A stretch of 52,393 bases of DNA from Candidatus Rokuibacteriota bacterium (GTDB lineage: Bacteria > Methylomirabilota > Methylomirabilia > Rokubacteriales > CSP1-6): the NCBI GenBank assembly GCA_030647435.1, contig JAUSJX010000141.1, positions 1-52,393 of the forward strand, read 5' to 3'. Made by a program: the position numbers and the translations under genes. A model generated the notes under the pieces. It was not told the origin of the DNA. It saw nothing but the letters and a program-made list of their open reading frames with translations, and ran no database searches. Each line of letters begins with the position of its first letter. Positions within the stretch are counted from its first letter, which is position 1. This document shows positions 35,418 to 45,382 of this stretch, piece by piece.

Positions 35418-36344
35418 ATGCTGCTGGGTCTCGTCCTTGTCTGCCTGGCCGCGGTGTCCTGGGGCACCACGGGCTCCGTGATGGCCCTGCTGGCGAGGGA
35501 GGGGACGCCAAGCCCCCTCCTGGTCGGCTGGGCGCGCATGGCCGCAGCCGCGCCCTGCCTCCTCGTCGCGCTCGCGCTCGTGCGGCCCGCGGCCGCCGCG
35601 CGCGGCGAATGGCGGCCGCGCGATCGGGCGAAGGCCGCGCTCCTCGGCGCCGCCATGGCCGCGTATCAAGTCTGCTACTTCTGGGCCGTGGCGCGCACCG
35701 GCGTGGCGCTGACGGCGCTGCTCGCCATCTGCCTAGCACCACTCATGATCGCGGCCGGCGCGGCGCTCACCCTCAAGGAGCGCCCGAGCCCTGCCACGCT
35801 CGCGGCGCTGCTGTTGGCCGTCGCGGGCACCGCCATGATCCTGGCGGGCCCGCGTGCGGACGGCGTCGCGCCTCCCGGGTCCACCGCGGGCACCTTCGCT
35901 GCGGGCGCGTTCGCCGCGCTCGGCGCCGGGTTATCTTACGCTGTGTACGCGGTCACCGCCAAGGGCCTTCTCCGGCGCGCCGCGCCGCTGCCGCTCGCCG
36001 CGCTGACATTCACGCTGGCCGCTCTCCTGCTGACTCCCGTGCTCGCGCTGGAGCGCGGCGCGGCGGCGCAGCTTGTCGCGGGCTGGCCTCTGCTCCTGTA
36101 CCTCGGCGTCGTCCCGACGGCCGCAGCCTACGTGGTCTTCGGCGAGGGACTCCGCCGCGTGACGGTCACGACCGCGGGCATCGCAACCCTGCTGGAGCCG
36201 CTGACCGCGGCGGCGCTCGGCGTCCTGCTCTTCGGCGAGCGCCTGGGCACCGTCGGTTGGGCCGGCGCCGCGCTGCTGCTCGGGGCCCTCGGGCTCCTGG
36301 CGTGGGCGGGCTCAGACAGCCCCAGCTCAGACCACCCCAGCTGA
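35418..36344 (+). CDS. EamA/DMT-family transporter
   Basis: 308 residues, ten membrane helices in two EamA repeats. The first begins LLGLVLVCLAAVSWGTTGSV and the second FAALGAGLSYAVYAVTAKGL. The end of each repeat has the family pattern LLAICLAPLMIAAGAALTL and GIATLLEPLTAAALGVLLFG. Drug/metabolite exporter; the substrate cannot be told. The ATG at 35418 is preferred over an earlier GTG at 35370, since the first helix begins right there. Its last 18 bp overlap the convergent cyclase gene. Confidence 0.9.
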   Translation: MLLGLVLVCLAAVSWGTTGSVMALLAREGTPSPLLVGWARMAAAAPCLLVALALVRPAAAARGEWRPRDRAKAALLGAAMAAYQVCYFWAVARTGVALTALLAICLAPLMIAAGAALTLKERPSPATLAALLLAVAGTAMILAGPRADGVAPPGSTAGTFAAGAFAALGAGLSYAVYAVTAKGLLRRAAPLPLAALTFTLAALLLTPVLALERGAAAQLVAGWPLLLYLGVVPTAAAYVVFGEGLRRVTVTTAGIATLLEPLTAAALGVLLFGERLGTVGWAGAALLLGALGLLAWAGSDSPSSDHPS

Positions 36345-38738
36345 GACCGCCAAAGTCGGCAGCCCCGCCGAAAGACGGAAGACACGCACCGGCTCTTCCA
36401 CGTTCTTGAGCAGCCGCTCGCCCAAGTCCTCTAGGTCGAGCCAGCCGGAGAGCCGCCGGGCGGTCTCAGGCCCGATGAAGACGGAGTCGCCAGCCCCGAG
36501 CGCGGCGAGTCGCGCGGCGACGTTGGTCACGGCGCCCGAGGCCGTGTAGGTCCAGCGGGTGCCGGCGGTGCCCTCGATCTTGGTGGCGCCCACCGCGGCC
36601 GCCCCGGAGTTCACGCCCACGTGGAGGCGGATGGGCTCGTCGACGGCGCCCGCCTCGCCGTTGATCTCGTCCGTCCGGCGCAGGATGCCGAGCGCCGCAT
36701 GGGCGGCGTTCCGCGCGTGACGCTCCGGGTCTTCGTCCTGGAAGATCACCATGAGCCCGTCACCCGCGGTCTCGTTCACGTCGCCGCCGTTGCGCAGGAC
36801 CTCGTCGAGGAAGGCGCCGAAGTAGCGCTCGACGACGAAGTTGAGGCGATCAGGGTCGTGGCGCTCCGACAGCCGCGTGTAGCCGGCGATGTCCACGAAG
36901 AGGACGGACACGTCCATCTCGCGCTTGGCGAGCTCCGGCGCCTCCGGCGCCTGCTCGATGAGCTCCTGGACCCGGCGCGGCACGAACTTGGACAGGCTCG
37001 TCCGGATGGACTCGAGGATCTCGACGCGGCGGAGCGTGTCGGCGAGCCGCCGGTTGGCGGCCTCGAGCGCCGTGTAGGCCCGGGCGTTCTCGAGCGCGAC
37101 GGCGCTCTGGTTGACGACGACGCGCAGCAGGCGAAGGTCGTCCGTCGTGTAGGAGGCGCCCGAGCGCTTCTCGCCGAGGGCGAGGAGGCCCGTGACGCGA
37201 TCGCCGAAGAGCACGGGCATCACCAGCTCGGCGCCGAGGGCACGCATCTGAGCGAGGCAGGTGTCCCGGCAAGAGGCCATGTCCGGGTCGGCTTCGTGCT
37301 GGACGCGAGTGAGCGGCTCGCGCTCCTTGCCCAGGTGCAGGGCCAGCGACGACTCGGCGGCGATGAGACCGCCCGCGCCCATCGGCCCGGCGCTGCCGAC
37401 GACGACGCGGTAGCGCCCCTGCCCCTCGTCGAGCAGCGCGAGCGTCAGCCGCGACGGATGGAAGGCCTCGTCCACCGTCCGGCTGATGAGGCCCGCGATG
37501 CGGTCGAGGTCGAGCACGGTCGTCATGGTGCCGGCGAGCCGCTCGATGGAGCGCTGGACGTCGAGGCGCTGGCGGAAGAAGACCCGGTCCACCACACGCT
37601 GGGCGCGGACGTAGACGGGGTTGAGGAACAGCACGACGGCGAGCGCCAGCACCACGGCCGTGGCGAGCGGGCTCGCGCCCATCCCGAGCCGGGTGAAGAC
37701 CACGTCGAGCAGCGTGATGGCTCCCGCGTAGGCCGCGATCACGACACCGGTCACCAGCCCGTAGATGGTGCCGAGGCGGACGACGGCGCGCACGTCGAAG
37801 AGGTCGTAGCGCACCATGGCGTATGCCACGGCGACCGGGAAGAGGACGTTGAGCTTCCAGAGCAGGTTGAGGTACGGCACCGCCATGCCCGTCACGGCCT
37901 CGAGGGTCGTGCCCATCACGGGAGCGAGCTGGCCCACGGCGAACCCCGCGAGCAGCACCCAGGCGTGCTGGCGGCCAAGAGGGGTCGAGCCGCGCAGCGC
38001 CGTCGTCGCGAGCGCCGCGATCAGGAGGACGAGGGACGAGACCCAGTACACGGCGGCCGCGGTCGGGATCAGCACGAACTCGCTCGGCGGGACGCCGGTA
38101 TGGCGCGTCTGGAGAAGAACGGCCAGGAGCGCCGAGACGCCGTAGGCAAGCAAGATGAGGCGGGGGTGGCGCAGTGACCACGGGCGCCGCTCGGGAAAGC
38201 TCTGGGCCAGGTGCAGGTAGAGCGCGGGCGAGAAAGCCCAGGCCGTGACGAAGATGACGTCGAAGCGGTAGGTGCTGACGGCGTCGTGGTAGAGCGCGGC
38301 CGTCACGAACCAGATGAGACAGAAGAGCAGGAAGACCCGCGCGTCCGGGGCGCCGGGCTTGAGGACGAGGACGGCGGCGCCCAACCCCAGGAAGAGCAGC
38401 CCCGGCAGCAGCCCCTCGAGCAGGAACCGCACGAAGTCGCGGACGGGCTCGACCGTGCTCGTGATGTCCGCCTCGACCAGGCTGCCGCGACGGTTGACGA
38501 GGTAGTGGAAGCTCGTGCCCGCCGGGTGGCGGCGGACCTCGTCCTGGATCTGTCTGCCGGAGGCGAGGAGGCGGCCGTCCATGGCACGCACGAAGTCGAA
38601 AGGCTCGAGCCCGCCGCGCTCGACCCCGAGCCCCACCAGGAGGTTGTCCATCACCGAGAAGCCCGGATAGGGCTGGCCGACGAGCCGCCAGGCATCGACC
38701 GTCGTCCACGCCCCGAGCCCGAGGGCCAGCGTCAGCAC
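36327..38738 (-). CDS. Membrane-bound class III adenylate/guanylate cyclase with GAF domain
   Basis: 803 residues. A short helix is followed by a PDZ-like periplasmic segment (about residues 25-95), then about eight membrane helices (about residues 100-385), a GAF domain (about 400-550), a helical linker and a class III cyclase domain (about 607-760). The first metal Asp is in VLFVDIAGYTRL, the second in NETAGDGLMVIF; the transition-state Asn/Arg are in VTNVAARLAAL. It would make cAMP or cGMP in response to a signal sensed by the membrane or GAF part. The GTG at 38738 is inside the first hydrophobic segment; an upstream CTG at 38765 with a GGGGAC-type site could be the true start. Confidence 0.88.
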   Translation of the reverse strand: MLTLALGLGAWTTVDAWRLVGQPYPGFSVMDNLLVGLGVERGGLEPFDFVRAMDGRLLASGRQIQDEVRRHPAGTSFHYLVNRRGSLVEADITSTVEPVRDFVRFLLEGLLPGLLFLGLGAAVLVLKPGAPDARVFLLFCLIWFVTAALYHDAVSTYRFDVIFVTAWAFSPALYLHLAQSFPERRPWSLRHPRLILLAYGVSALLAVLLQTRHTGVPPSEFVLIPTAAAVYWVSSLVLLIAALATTALRGSTPLGRQHAWVLLAGFAVGQLAPVMGTTLEAVTGMAVPYLNLLWKLNVLFPVAVAYAMVRYDLFDVRAVVRLGTIYGLVTGVVIAAYAGAITLLDVVFTRLGMGASPLATAVVLALAVVLFLNPVYVRAQRVVDRVFFRQRLDVQRSIERLAGTMTTVLDLDRIAGLISRTVDEAFHPSRLTLALLDEGQGRYRVVVGSAGPMGAGGLIAAESSLALHLGKEREPLTRVQHEADPDMASCRDTCLAQMRALGAELVMPVLFGDRVTGLLALGEKRSGASYTTDDLRLLRVVVNQSAVALENARAYTALEAANRRLADTLRRVEILESIRTSLSKFVPRRVQELIEQAPEAPELAKREMDVSVLFVDIAGYTRLSERHDPDRLNFVVERYFGAFLDEVLRNGGDVNETAGDGLMVIFQDEDPERHARNAAHAALGILRRTDEINGEAGAVDEPIRLHVGVNSGAAAVGATKIEGTAGTRWTYTASGAVTNVAARLAALGAGDSVFIGPETARRLSGWLDLEDLGERLLKNVEEPVRVFRLSAGLPTLAVSAGVV

Positions 38739-38782: not shown

Positions 38783-39844
38783 CTAAGGCCGCAGCTCGAC
38801 GGCCTTGCTCACCGCGCGGCTGAAGGTGCAGTTAGGCACGACGCAGGAGTGCTTGCCCGGGCCGCCGGCGACCATGACGTAGACGTCCTCTGGGGTCGGC
38901 ACCATCGGCAGGAGCGCCTGCTCGTCGGTGACCTTCTGCATCCAGAGGGGCCAGTCGTGCATACCCCACATGCCGCCGAGCTTGAGCCTGCCTAGCGGGA
39001 TGCGGGCGTGCTCGAAGACGAAGCGCTGCACGTCCGCGGCCGAGAAGCCGTCGGCCGCGATGGTCTGCGCGTGCTCGGGCCCCAGCACCACCAGGAGCTG
39101 ACTCTGGGTCATGTACCAGCCGACATTGGAGCCGAGCGTGGCCGCGACGTCCGAGACGTTGTTGAGGATGCCCGCCGCGGTCGTGGAGACGTGGTCGTTG
39201 ACGTTGTGCGGCGCCTCGCCGCCGAAGACCGTCACCACGCTTTGCTCGGCCGCGAACCCGAGCCGCGCGTGGAGCGGAGGCCAAGGCGAGACGTCCTCCC
39301 GCTCGGCGATGGCGTAGGAGAACTTTGCCGGACTGCCCTGGGTCGCCATGTCGTGGCGCCCGGGCCAGCCGCCGCCCACGTTCATGAGGATGAGCCGGAT
39401 GGCGCGGCCGATGGTCGCGTTGGCGCGAAAGCCGGGACCGAAGAGCCCCGCGCCCGCGTGCATGCCGACGGCGCGCGCGGCGGGGCCGCTGACGATGACG
39501 AGCGGTGCGACGGGGTGCGTGGTCGCCTGGACGCCGTAGAGGTTGAAGGCGGGCTCGAGTATGGCCGCGACAGCCGCGAGAACGACCGGGAAGCAGGTGG
39601 GCTCGCAGCCGGCCATGACGGCGTTGACGGCGAGCTTTTCGACGCTTGCCTCGCGCCAGAGCGGCGGCATGAGGCCGAGCACCCGAGCCGGATCCTCCCC
39701 GCCGGCCGCGACCATCGCCCGCACCCGCTCCGGCGTGGGGGGCACGATGGGCAGCCCGTCGCACCAGTCGCGTTTGACGAATTCCGCGAAGATATCTTCC
39801 TCTGGCAGCTGGAGCTCACGAACAGCGGAAGCGGGGTCGGGCAC
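38783..39844 (-). CDS. Conserved protein of unknown function near the selenoprotein
   Basis: 353 residues, soluble, no signal peptide. I do not recognise a characterised family. Visible conserved-looking parts are FAEFVKRDWCDGLPIVPPTP at the start, MAGCEPTCFPVVLAAVAAIL, GPGFRANATIGRAIRLILMN and VAGGPGKHSCVVPNC at the end. The paired Cys in the centre and at the C-terminus could be redox or metal sites. GTG start with AGGAGG 5 nt upstream. It is on the same strand and downstream of the UGSC selenoprotein gene, separated only by a pseudogene. The two may share a pathway, which is inference. Confidence 0.8.
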   Translation of the reverse strand: MPDPASAVRELQLPEEDIFAEFVKRDWCDGLPIVPPTPERVRAMVAAGGEDPARVLGLMPPLWREASVEKLAVNAVMAGCEPTCFPVVLAAVAAILEPAFNLYGVQATTHPVAPLVIVSGPAARAVGMHAGAGLFGPGFRANATIGRAIRLILMNVGGGWPGRHDMATQGSPAKFSYAIAEREDVSPWPPLHARLGFAAEQSVVTVFGGEAPHNVNDHVSTTAAGILNNVSDVAATLGSNVGWYMTQSQLLVVLGPEHAQTIAADGFSAADVQRFVFEHARIPLGRLKLGGMWGMHDWPLWMQKVTDEQALLPMVPTPEDVYVMVAGGPGKHSCVVPNCTFSRAVSKAVELRP

Positions 39845-39871
39845 GGCGTCCTCCTGGCGCGAGATGATCGC

Positions 39872-40544
39872 TTATCGGGGCAGTGTACCTCTCCTGAAAC
39901 GCTCGAGGGCGCCCCGGAACTCGGCGTTCTGCGGCTCGAGAGCGACCGCCCGCTCGAAGAAGCGCCCGGCCTCGTTCGTCTGCCCGAGCCACCACGACGC
40001 GGCCCCGGCCAGGAAGAGCGCCGCCGGCTGCGCGGGCTCCCGCACGAGCGCGCGGCGGGCGAACGCGAACGCGTCGGCGGGCCGGCCCCGAGCTGCAGCG
40101 CGGCCGTGCTGGCTCCGAGCGCCGACACGGCATGGGCGGGGTCGAAGGCCAACGCCCGCTCGAACTGGGCGAGAGCGTCGGCCGCGGCGCCGCGCCGCAA
40201 GCAGCCGACCCCCACCCAATAGCGGCTATCCGCGCGCTCGATCTCCCGCGCGCTCTCCGGCGTGAACTCGGGCAATGAAGCCCGGCGGAACCAGCCGAGG
40301 AGCACGCGGTTCGGCAGCGAGGTGTCGACGTAGGCGGTTTTCGCAAACGGCCCGCGAAGCGGCCGAAGAGGGCGGCTCCTAACGCGAGCCCGGCCATGAA
40401 GGCCGCGAGCACCGCGGTGAGCGCGTCCACCGCGTGTCCCACGACCAGGCCGAGCATGCGCAGCCACACAACCTCGTACACGAGCGCGGCGGCGCCCGAG
40501 AGGACGGCCGCCTTCAGCGCGAGCCGGAGCGCCGTCGCCGGCAT
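39872..40544 (-). pseudogene. Decayed fused MFS/spermidine-synthase-like gene with TPR tail
   Basis: Three successive frames carry parts of one protein. The first, from the ATG at 40544, has VYEVVWLRMLGLVVGHAVDA and AAFMAGLALGAALFGR, the N-terminal membrane region of fused MFS/spermidine-synthase proteins. Near 40350 the reading moves to a second frame (FAKTAYVDTSLPNRVLLGWF, then TPR-like ALAQFERALAFDPAHAVSAL). Near 40085 it moves to a third frame (AFAFARRALVREPAQPAALF, AGRFFERAVALEPQN), ending at a TAA at 39872. Complete relatives are several hundred residues longer, so the central MFS and SpeE domains have been deleted as well as frame broken. One frameshift alone could be a sequence error; the large deletion could not. 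Confidence 0.75.
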
Positions 40545-40639: not shown

Positions 40640-41170
40640 TCACGCGGAGCCGAGCAGGCTCGCCAGCTGTTCCACCGCCTGCAGCGCGCGCCTACTCACG
40701 GCCTCGGGCTTCTCACCGCCCAGCGGGTGCTGGATCACGATGAGCGGCAGCCCCGTGGCTCCGAGCGCCGCCATCTCGCTCACGGCGAGGTTCTGGAACA
40801 CCGTGGTCCCGATCAGCCCGGACGGCGTCCCGCGCTTGGCCACCTCCAGCGAGTCGTGGAGACTCCACGACGTGCAGGAGCCTCAGTCGCCTGAGCCGGC
40901 GAAGACGAGGTCACAGTCCTTCGCGAGTCCCTCGATGATCTCGTCGGAGGCGGCGGTCGAAGCGTTGGCCTTCTTCCGGTGCACCACGGCCTTGACGCCG
41001 AAGCGCTCCTTGAGGAGCACGCCCATCTCCTGCACCAGCAGGTCGAAGTTGTGCTTCGTGTTGTCCACGAACCCCACGGTGAGGCCGCGAAGGTCGGCCG
41101 GCAGCGGCGGCACGGCCAGGGTCGCCTGGCGCCGCTCGCCGACCGGAGTCAAGACGGTGATCGTGGCCAT
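40640..41170 (-). CDS. UGSC-family selenoprotein (in-frame UGA read as selenocysteine)
   Basis: 176 residues if the TGA at 40883-40885 is read as selenocysteine (U), at residue 96. Before it the frame gives a Rossmann-like region (LRGLTVGFVDNTKHNFDLLV, DCDLVFAGSGD). After it the same frame continues GSCTSWSLHDSLEVAKRGTP and LIGTTVFQNLAVSEMAALGA to a TGA stop at 40640-40642. The motif across the codon is U-G-S-C, the hallmark of the UGSC family. A SECIS-like hairpin follows the UGA. GAGGAG precedes the ATG. Function unknown; the Sec and Cys suggest a redox active site. Standard gene callers would split it into a 95-residue protein and a fragment. No selA, selB, selC or selD is in the window. 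Confidence 0.9.
40853..40885 (-). promoter_or_regulatory. Bacterial SECIS-like hairpin directly after the UGA codon
   Basis: On the minus strand, 11 nt after the TGA, GTCGTGGA (40871-40864) pairs perfectly with TCCACGAC (40860-40853). The top of the stem is GGAGUCUCC, so the small apical loop contains GU. The loop begins about 18 nt after the UGA, inside the 16-37 nt window seen for bacterial SECIS elements recognised by SelB. Confidence 0.8.
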
Positions 41171-42997: not shown

Positions 42998-45382
42998 ATG
43001 CGAATCGCGATCGGCTGTGACGACACCGGTTTTCCGCTGAAGGAGCAGGTGGTGGCGGCGCTCGAAGCGAGCGGCCACGACCTCCTCGACCTCGGCACCT
43101 TCTCCACCGACCCGGTGGACCATCCGGACTACGCGCGCGCGGTCGGGCAGGCCGTGCTCCGCGGCTTCGTGGACGCGGGCGTGCTGATCTGCGGCAGCGG
43201 CGCCGGCGCCTCCATCGCCGCGAACAAGATCCGGGGCGTCCGGGCCTCCCTCTGTCACGACCCGGAGGCGGCGCGTCTCTCCCGCGAGGAGGACGACGCC
43301 AACGTCCTGTGCCTGGGCGCCCGCGAGGTGGATGTCGCGCGTGCGGTCGAGATCGCGTCGGCGTGGCTTGCCGCTTCCTTCTCCGGCGAGGAGCGCTTTG
43401 TGCGCAAGGTCTCCAAGGTCGCGCTCCTCGAGGGCGGCCTGGCGCCCCCGGAGAGAGGCACGACGCGCCAGCCGGCTCCGTCGCAGCAGGAGCGCCCGCC
43501 GGCGGCCGCAGACAAGGGCAAGCCGGCCGCTGCCCGCGCGGCGGCGCCCGGCAAGCGCGACACCTGGGAAGAGGTGCCGGTCGAGGCCATAGCCCGGGCG
43601 CTCCAGGAGGCACCGGCCGATGCCCCCAGGGAGCCGGTCACGGCGGGCCCGGTCGAGATGGAGGCGCCGGTGGCCGCGCAGGCGAAGGCGCAGGCGCGCC
43701 CAGCGGACGAGACCTTCAAGCTACCGGCCGTCCAGGAGACCCTGGACGCCCTCGAGAGCCAGGACTTCATGGACCGTCTCTGGGTCAAGGACGCGTCCCT
43801 GTGGAAGGGCGAAACCGCGGCGATCCGCAACCGTCTCGGATGGCTGACCTCGCCGACCATCATGCGCGGCCACGCCGACGACATCAAAGGCTTCGCGGAC
43901 GAGATCCGGAGGCTTCAGTTCACGCACGTCGTGCTGCTGGGCATGGGAGGCTCGTCGCTCTGCGGCGACGTCTTCAACCTGACGTTCGGCTCCAAGATGG
44001 GCTACCCCGACCTCCTGCTGCTCGACTCGACCGATCCCGCGGCGATCAAGTACACGCTCGACCGGCTCAACCTGACGCGCACGCTCTTCATCGTCGCCAC
44101 GAAGTCCGGCACCACGACCGAGACCCTGTCCCTGTACCAGTACTTCCGCGGACAGGTCGAGGCCTCCTCGGTGCCGCGCGCGGGTATCCACTTCGTCGCC
44201 ATCACCGACCCCGGCCGGCCGCTCGACAAGCTCGCAACCGAGTCGGGCTTCCGCCGCACCTTCCTGAACCCGGCCTCGATCGGCGGACGCTACTCGGCCC
44301 TGTCCTTCTTCGGCCTCGTGCCCGCGGCGCTGATCGGCATCGACATCAAGGCGCTGCTCGACCGCTCCCACGCCATGGTCGAGGCGTGCGGCAACGCGGT
44401 GGGCGCCCGCGACAATGCGGCGGTCCGGCTCGGCGCCGCGCTCGCGGGGCTGGGCAAAGCCGGCCGCGACAAGGTGACGCTCGTGCTCTCGCGCAAGCTC
44501 CGCGGTCTCGGCCCCTGGATCGAGCAGCTCCTGGCGGAGTCGCTCGGCAAGGACGGCAAGGGCCTCGTGCCCGTGGACGACGAGCCGCTCGGCCCGCCCG
44601 CGGTCTACGGCGAGGATCGCGTCTTCGTGGCCGTCACGCTCGACGGCGACCTTAGCCACGACGCCGCGCTCAACGAGCTCGAGGACGCGGGCCATCCCGT
44701 GATCCGCATCGCGCTCCGGGAGCCGCTCGAGGTCGGGGCCGAGTTCTTCCGCTGGGAGCTGGCGACGGCCGCCGCCGGCGCCGCGATGGGCGTCAACCCC
44801 TTCGACGAGCCCGACGTCACGCGCGCCAAGGAGAACACGGCGTCGCTGCTCGGGGCGTGGAAGAAGAGCAAGAAGCTGCCGGAATGGCCGGCCGACGCTG
44901 AGGAGAACGGCCTCGTGCTCATGACGAACTCAGCCAAGAAGCCGGCCGGAGTGTCGCCGGGGCTCCAGGCCTTTCTGGGGCAGGCCGTGGCGGGCGACTA
45001 CATCGCCATCCAGGCGTACCTGGCGCCCACGGCGGACACGTGGAGCCGACTGCAGGAGCTCCGGACGCTCCTGCGCGATCGCCTCAAGCTCGCGACCACG
45101 GTGGCCTTCGGCCCGCGCTACCTGCACTCGACGGGGCAGCTGCACAAGGGCGGCCGCCCCAACGGCGTGTTCATTCAGATCACGGGCGAGGACAAGGAGG
45201 ACATGGCCATCCCGGGCGCGGGGTACGGCTTCTCGACGCTCAAAGCCGCCCAGGCCCTGGGCGACCTCCAGGCCCTGCGGGACGCGGGACGCCGGGTGGT
45301 GCGCGTGCATCTGACGGGGAAGCAGACGCAAGGCGTCGAGCAGTTGTTCCAGGTGCTGCAGAAGGCGATCAAGAAGAAGTGA
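42998..45382 (+). CDS. Fusion of RpiB-type ribose-5-phosphate isomerase and phosphoglucose isomerase
   Basis: 794 residues. Residues 1 to about 145 are RpiB/LacA-like: MRIAIGCDDTGFPLKEQVVA, active-site Cys about 65 in LICGSGAGASIAANK, His about 87 in CHDPEAA, and ANVLCLGARE. A Pro/Ala/Lys-rich linker follows (about 146-238). From about 240 the protein is phosphoglucose-isomerase-like: THVVLLGMGGSSLCGDVFNL, ATKSGTTTETLSLYQYF, FLNPASIGGRYSALSFFGLV, and the late block GRRVVRVHLTGK. The PGI part resembles the PGI half of known transaldolase-PGI fusions. Both catalytic parts look complete. It would link ribulose-5-phosphate/ribose-5-phosphate with fructose-6-phosphate/glucose-6-phosphate chemistry in one chain. 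Downstream of a sugar kinase. Confidence 0.9.
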   Translation: MRIAIGCDDTGFPLKEQVVAALEASGHDLLDLGTFSTDPVDHPDYARAVGQAVLRGFVDAGVLICGSGAGASIAANKIRGVRASLCHDPEAARLSREEDDANVLCLGAREVDVARAVEIASAWLAASFSGEERFVRKVSKVALLEGGLAPPERGTTRQPAPSQQERPPAAADKGKPAAARAAAPGKRDTWEEVPVEAIARALQEAPADAPREPVTAGPVEMEAPVAAQAKAQARPADETFKLPAVQETLDALESQDFMDRLWVKDASLWKGETAAIRNRLGWLTSPTIMRGHADDIKGFADEIRRLQFTHVVLLGMGGSSLCGDVFNLTFGSKMGYPDLLLLDSTDPAAIKYTLDRLNLTRTLFIVATKSGTTTETLSLYQYFRGQVEASSVPRAGIHFVAITDPGRPLDKLATESGFRRTFLNPASIGGRYSALSFFGLVPAALIGIDIKALLDRSHAMVEACGNAVGARDNAAVRLGAALAGLGKAGRDKVTLVLSRKLRGLGPWIEQLLAESLGKDGKGLVPVDDEPLGPPAVYGEDRVFVAVTLDGDLSHDAALNELEDAGHPVIRIALREPLEVGAEFFRWELATAAAGAAMGVNPFDEPDVTRAKENTASLLGAWKKSKKLPEWPADAEENGLVLMTNSAKKPAGVSPGLQAFLGQAVAGDYIAIQAYLAPTADTWSRLQELRTLLRDRLKLATTVAFGPRYLHSTGQLHKGGRPNGVFIQITGEDKEDMAIPGAGYGFSTLKAAQALGDLQALRDAGRRVVRVHLTGKQTQGVEQLFQVLQKAIKKK

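Follow-up and report, generated by a model that had tools for sequence, protein, structure and literature searches.

The window analysed here, a stretch of 52,393 nucleotides, is contig C141 of a soil or groundwater Rokubacterium (genome of 5.79 Mb, 98.5% complete), and it carries on its minus strand a gene of the UGSC family, hereafter U, followed downstream by a partner gene, P (Table 1). The frame of U opens with an ATG at 41170-41168 and closes with a terminal TGA at 40642-40640, giving 176 codons with a single interruption, and the read-through sequence around the interruption is ...LVFAGSGD-U-GSCTSWSLHD... (motif D-U-G-S-C). The initial annotation had placed the gene at the correct coordinates and omitted the strand from its text; besides the strand, what is described below on the partner gene P, on the SECIS hairpin and on the expansion in paralogues goes beyond it. 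Ordinary ORF calling splits U into a 95-aa ORF (40883-41170) and a separate, GTG-started 67-aa ORF (40640-40843), which reproduces the truncated 95-residue product predicted for an automatic annotation. Among the other genes of the window, an adenylate/guanylate cyclase gene with a GAF domain (36327-38738, minus strand) lies directly downstream of P and is kept in the sister locus L056, and the plus strand encodes at 42998-45382 a 794-aa protein in which ribose-5-phosphate isomerase B (LacAB_rpiB) and phosphoglucose isomerase are fused.

Table 1. Features of the U-P locus, with positions counted from the first nucleotide of the window.
Feature	Position	Strand	Description	Basis
UGSC-family selenoprotein gene U (predicted)	40640..41170	minus	176 aa, one TGA read through	Translation; NF041046; PF24696; selection on both halves
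Predicted Sec codon of U	40883..40885	minus	TGA, residue 96, first residue of U-G-S-C	TGA in 28/28 aligned Rokubacteria orthologues
Cys99 of U	40874..40876	minus	Second residue of the UxxC pair	Invariant together with position 96 in a 74-sequence alignment
bSECIS-type hairpin (predicted)	40853..40871	minus	8-bp stem GUCGUGGA/UCCACGAC, loop GUC, UGA-to-apical-loop 19 nt	Fits the bSECIS model (PMC13188914)
Spermidine-synthase/TPR gene remnant	39816..40544	minus	Between U and P; internally deleted	TPR piece
Partner gene P	38783..39844	minus	~353 aa, GTG start, motif W[CT]DGLP[IV]VPPT ... NAVMAGC	Adjoins or is fused with nearly all UGSC genes

The read-through protein matches the Pfam family UGSC (PF24696) over residues 5-174 with 159 bits against a cut-off of 25 (E 1.6e-46), carries the U/C-G-S-C motif of the family, and scores 121.4 bits, narrowly below the cut-off of 125, with the NCBIfam model NF041046 'UGSC family (seleno)protein'. 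Only two columns, U/C96 and C99, are invariant among 74 UGSC sequences. In a codon-wise alignment of 28 Rokubacteria orthologues the TGA is kept at the Sec codon in every sequence, and the median pN/pS is 0.50 before the TGA and 0.40 after it; both halves are therefore under purifying selection and probably translated, in agreement with the earlier remark that sensible protein flanks the TGA on both sides. Cys (CGSC) homologues, which had been proposed as a check, occur in haloarchaea and read straight through. The continuation of the frame across the TGA is more than chance and U is, judging from sequence, a true UGSC-family selenoprotein, which confirms the in-frame TGA and the U-G-S-C signature first noted. 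Since UGSC selenoproteins have been known since 2008 and are abundant in environmental data (PMC2398784), U adds one more member to a known family.

The decoding machinery was found in the same genome: a tRNA-Sec (71.3 bits against an Rfam gathering score of 47), SelA (492 bits) encoded directly upstream of SelB (380 bits), and SelD (343 bits), the last with an in-frame TGA of its own. Together with 11 further TGA-bearing UGSC paralogues, these genes support the earlier claim that the organism makes selenocysteine. SelB is nearly universal across the class of the host, so that its co-occurrence with UGSC has no discriminating power. The notion that the TGA is a real stop or a sequencing error, with the second half of U as a separate gene or pseudogene, has almost nothing left to recommend it and is already refuted at the sequence level: the downstream GTG-started ORF does exist, but all 12 host paralogues carry one TGA, Cys homologues run past this point, a SECIS and the Sec machinery are present, and a misread TGC or TGT is countered by independently assembled orthologues, in which the TGA is conserved at this codon.

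The hairpin predicted downstream of the UGA agrees in spacing and loop G with the bSECIS model, which specifies 16-37 nt and a G in the first two loop positions (PMC13188914). Across UGSC sequences the stem is formed by columns 15-22 and 26-33 (numbered from the UGA), with the loop GUN, and in an A..R group it is shifted. Holding the structure fixed, we redrew the codons with the protein kept unchanged; 7.12 of the 8 stem pairs form in 131 distinct Sec sequences, compared with 4.69 ± 0.12 after this shuffling. Free-energy z-scores of single hairpins are weak, and it is the fixed-structure test over the 131 sequences that is decisive. At the junction where the stem ends and the loop begins, Ser is encoded by AGT in 102 of these sequences, while AGT makes up ~6% of the Ser codons in the neighbouring P genes, and the residues encoded by the stem swap jointly (W..H, G..L, C..H), in the way that base pairing demands. 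Synonymous divergence among Rokubacteria orthologues has a median pS of 0.27 at the hairpin vs 0.48-0.51 on either side. By these measures the predicted hairpin is conserved beyond codon constraint. Among the Cys sequences, which are few (8 distinct), the stem is partly kept in three haloarchaeal cases, and a loss of the SECIS in the Cys forms is suggested. Rfam yielded no relevant RNA family at the U locus.

The host has 12 UGSC genes, each with exactly one in-frame TGA. Its relatives are Candidatus Rokubacteria, judging from the best matches of the neighbouring gene. Among 40 relatives, UGSC genes occur in 30 genomes, mostly at 4-12 copies (within the same family), and a single TGA is present in each copy listed. 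Larger numbers were found in two betaproteobacterial genomes, with 22 UGSC matches in G058 and 58 in G052 (5.7 Mb, holding locus L108), where nearly all of the listed matches have one in-frame TGA. In G052, a MAG for which co-assembly is possible, the UGSC genes by themselves would compete with the largest selenoproteomes on record. In the literature, 63 selenoprotein genes are predicted for one Methylomirabilota MAG (PMC13188914). Copy numbers such as those of G052 and G058 are what would be expected of substrate-specific paralogues. One divergent paralogue of the host (L033:8562-9041, plus strand) has U-S-T-C in place of U-G-S-C, is fused to P, and sits directly downstream of a TauD-family dioxygenase gene.

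A copy of P lies on the same strand beside each of the 12 host UGSC genes, separated by 24-145 bp except at the present locus, where the gap is ~0.8 kb. Here U and P are held apart by a decayed spermidine-synthase/TPR gene, an insertion of this lineage that is still full length in the sister locus L056 (~0.9 kaa; Spermine_synth + TPR). Across 106 pairs, U and P are a median of 72 bp apart, and UGSC stands beside P in almost all loci that P retrieved from 80 GTDB contigs. A wider set was drawn from relatives and 20 other genomes; it consists mostly of weaker copies, the 20 genomes were found via P and a few loci were fetched twice. In this set P accompanies 90 of 91 assessable UGSC copies, with 34 fusions in one frame, always U then P, and fusion is seen in about a third of the UGSC copies examined. 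A natural fusion of this kind lies at L025:7548-9134. The distance matrices of U and P across the 12 host paralogues are correlated (r 0.69, Mantel p 0.0002), which indicates that the two co-diverge. On this evidence P is a near-obligate partner of UGSC, and from linkage and fusion we infer that the two products would form one enzyme. The sole assessable UGSC gene that has no P neighbour (L226:2308-2889) is followed by a gene weakly like 5-aminosalicylate 1,2-dioxygenase.

No Pfam or NCBIfam family was found for P, either with the single sequence or with 53 homologues. Its invariant residues are D29, P32, G79, G120, N142, R147, A148, E181, G327 and G328, with C80 near-invariant. P has no detectable similarity to GrdE/PrdA (PF09338 proteins; hhalign probability 0.1%) or to the GRDB profile (probability 0.5%), and its assignment to either domain was rejected for lack of profile similarity. 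Foldseek returned no close PDB relative, the best match being a fumarase subunit (7xky, E 5e-4, TM 0.25); a fumarase identity, which has the Foldseek E-value alone behind it, was likewise rejected at this TM. Sequence searches found no PDB relatives of U or P below E 0.09.

The AlphaFold2 (AF2) model of U (pLDDT 92.9) has five strands alternating with helices in a Rossmann-type arrangement, with the Sec after the third strand, and thioredoxin is absent from the PDB fold matches listed for U. According to this model UGSC is Rossmann-type and not thioredoxin-like, so that the Trx fold was rejected. When profiles were compared, U matched GRDB with a probability of 95% (E 3.7e-8) over about 90 columns, with UGSC aligned on CGTC and HPLGG on HPCGNP, the GRDB profile being built from 7 sequences only, GrdB-family proteins of the same clade. 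As negative controls, 25 unrelated families reached at most 16.6% probability and E 1.5e-3 against U. A Pfam scan of U with E up to 10 returned UGSC alone, the GRDB cut-off not being reached. The profile alignment argues that U is homologous to the C-terminal active-site region of GrdB/PrdB, with its Sec falling where these proteins have Cys or Sec. Elsewhere in the host genome (G000:C106:47718-50214; L136, L175) a full-length gene of the GrdB family, in its Cys form (CGTC), stands beside a Gly_reductase (GrdE/PrdA-like) gene, although this host is not an amino-acid-fermenting clostridium.

These results bear on the idea of UGSC as a redox protein of thioredoxin-like or peroxidatic type (a general oxidoreductase or antioxidant) with P as its substrate or adaptor. 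The 2008 GOS survey called UGSC a likely Trx-fold protein with a UxxC redox motif (PMC2398784), and U96 and C99 as the sole invariant columns are what a dithiol or selenolthiol pair would be expected to show; against this stand the confident Rossmann-type model and the profile similarity to GRDB, and up to 58 paralogues with their own partners suit substrate-specific metabolism better than a general redox duty. We regard such a role as unlikely.

The operon-like neighbours of UGSC genes comprise CoA transferases III, MmgE/PrpD, enoyl-CoA hydratases, HpcH/HpaI aldolase, a TRAP transporter and TctC receptors; they are not uniform, yet are consistent with organic-acid metabolism. TctC is the commonest neighbour family, and at least 127 TctC matches occur in each of five out of six of those genomes; TctC/Bug neighbours were discounted as a sign of tricarboxylate substrates on account of this extreme abundance. 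The presence of MmgE/PrpD, CoA transferases, enoyl-CoA hydratases and HpcH/HpaI, along with a fumarase subunit as the best PDB match of P, would also suit a lyase, dehydratase, racemase or thioester enzyme whose selenolate serves as a base or covalent nucleophile, with no net redox. However, at its TM the fumarase match is structurally not significant, and a UxxC in which Sec is paired with an invariant Cys is usually the sign of a redox cycle; this non-redox chemistry seems to us improbable.

The reading that we prefer, a serious possibility that we put forward with caution, is that U and P make up one enzyme, a substrate-specific Sec/Cys reductase of organic acids with P as the substrate-binding subunit. 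In such an enzyme P would bind the organic-acid substrate, the selenolate of residue 96 would attack the carbon bearing the leaving group (amino, hydroxy, halo or similar) to give a selenoether, Cys99 would resolve the selenoether, releasing the reduced acid and leaving a selenenylsulfide, and the U96/C99 pair would then be reset by a dithiol of the cell. The UGSC paralogues, 12 in the host and up to 58 in one genome, would each be specific for a different substrate. From homology, the chemistry would resemble that proposed for glycine and D-proline reductase, in which the selenolate attacks the carbon next to the carboxylate to form a selenoether and a Cys thiolate then yields the selenenylsulfide (PMC10298544). 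Since P has no similarity to GrdE/PrdA or GRDB, the pyruvoyl half would be missing and substrate activation would have to differ. On a broader scale, we tentatively suggest that UGSC and P could represent a large, so far unrecognised superfamily of selenoenzymes, two-component or fused. Its members would be Sec-dependent reductases that descend from the active-site domain of GrdB/PrdB and have gained a new subunit for substrate binding, and in free-living bacteria of soil and freshwater they would have expanded to tens of paralogues in a genome for the catabolism of different organic acids.

The description of the family as of unknown function holds for the literature, but it can be narrowed through P and the GrdB/PrdB likeness; the partner, this homology and the 12-58 copies provide a hypothesis that biochemistry can test. 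The glycine and D-proline reductases form the one selenoenzyme class known to break carbon-heteroatom bonds via a selenoether. Standard annotation truncates every such UGSC gene and, in the fusions, also splits P. The 2008 survey reported UGSC fused with a domain named 'Unknown_1' (PMC2398784), which may be P. A literature search, mostly outside subscription journals, found no report that U and P are a near-obligate pair, that UGSC is related to GrdB/PrdB or that it reaches such copy numbers; as far as checked, the pairing and fusion with P, the non-Trx fold with the GrdB/PrdB alignment, and the copy number of up to 58 are new.

With the known UGSC family (PF24696; NF041046; type ABI76733.1 in reviews) U shares the sequence family, the U-G-S-C motif, the existence of Sec and Cys forms and a length of ~175 aa, and what goes beyond it are the 12 copies in the host genome and P as a near-obligate partner. 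The likeness to GrdB/PrdB (PF07355 GRDB) lies in the C-terminal ~90 residues, where UGSC falls on Cys/Sec-x-x-Cys, in the dependence on Sec and in the occurrence of paralogues with different neighbours. In contrast to GrdB/PrdB, U is devoid of the GRDB N-terminal domain, its partner P is unrelated to GrdE/PrdA, the partner of GrdB/PrdB, and many UGSC hosts lie outside the amino-acid-fermenting clostridia. A further parallel is offered by FarB/FarE of Cloacibacillus, in which a GrdB-like paralogue is proposed to cleave fluoroacetate (PMC10838667): FarB/FarE is a true GrdB/GrdE pair that has no UGSC or P proteins, and yet, like UGSC, it is a Sec enzyme paralogue proposed to act on a non-amino-acid carboxylate.
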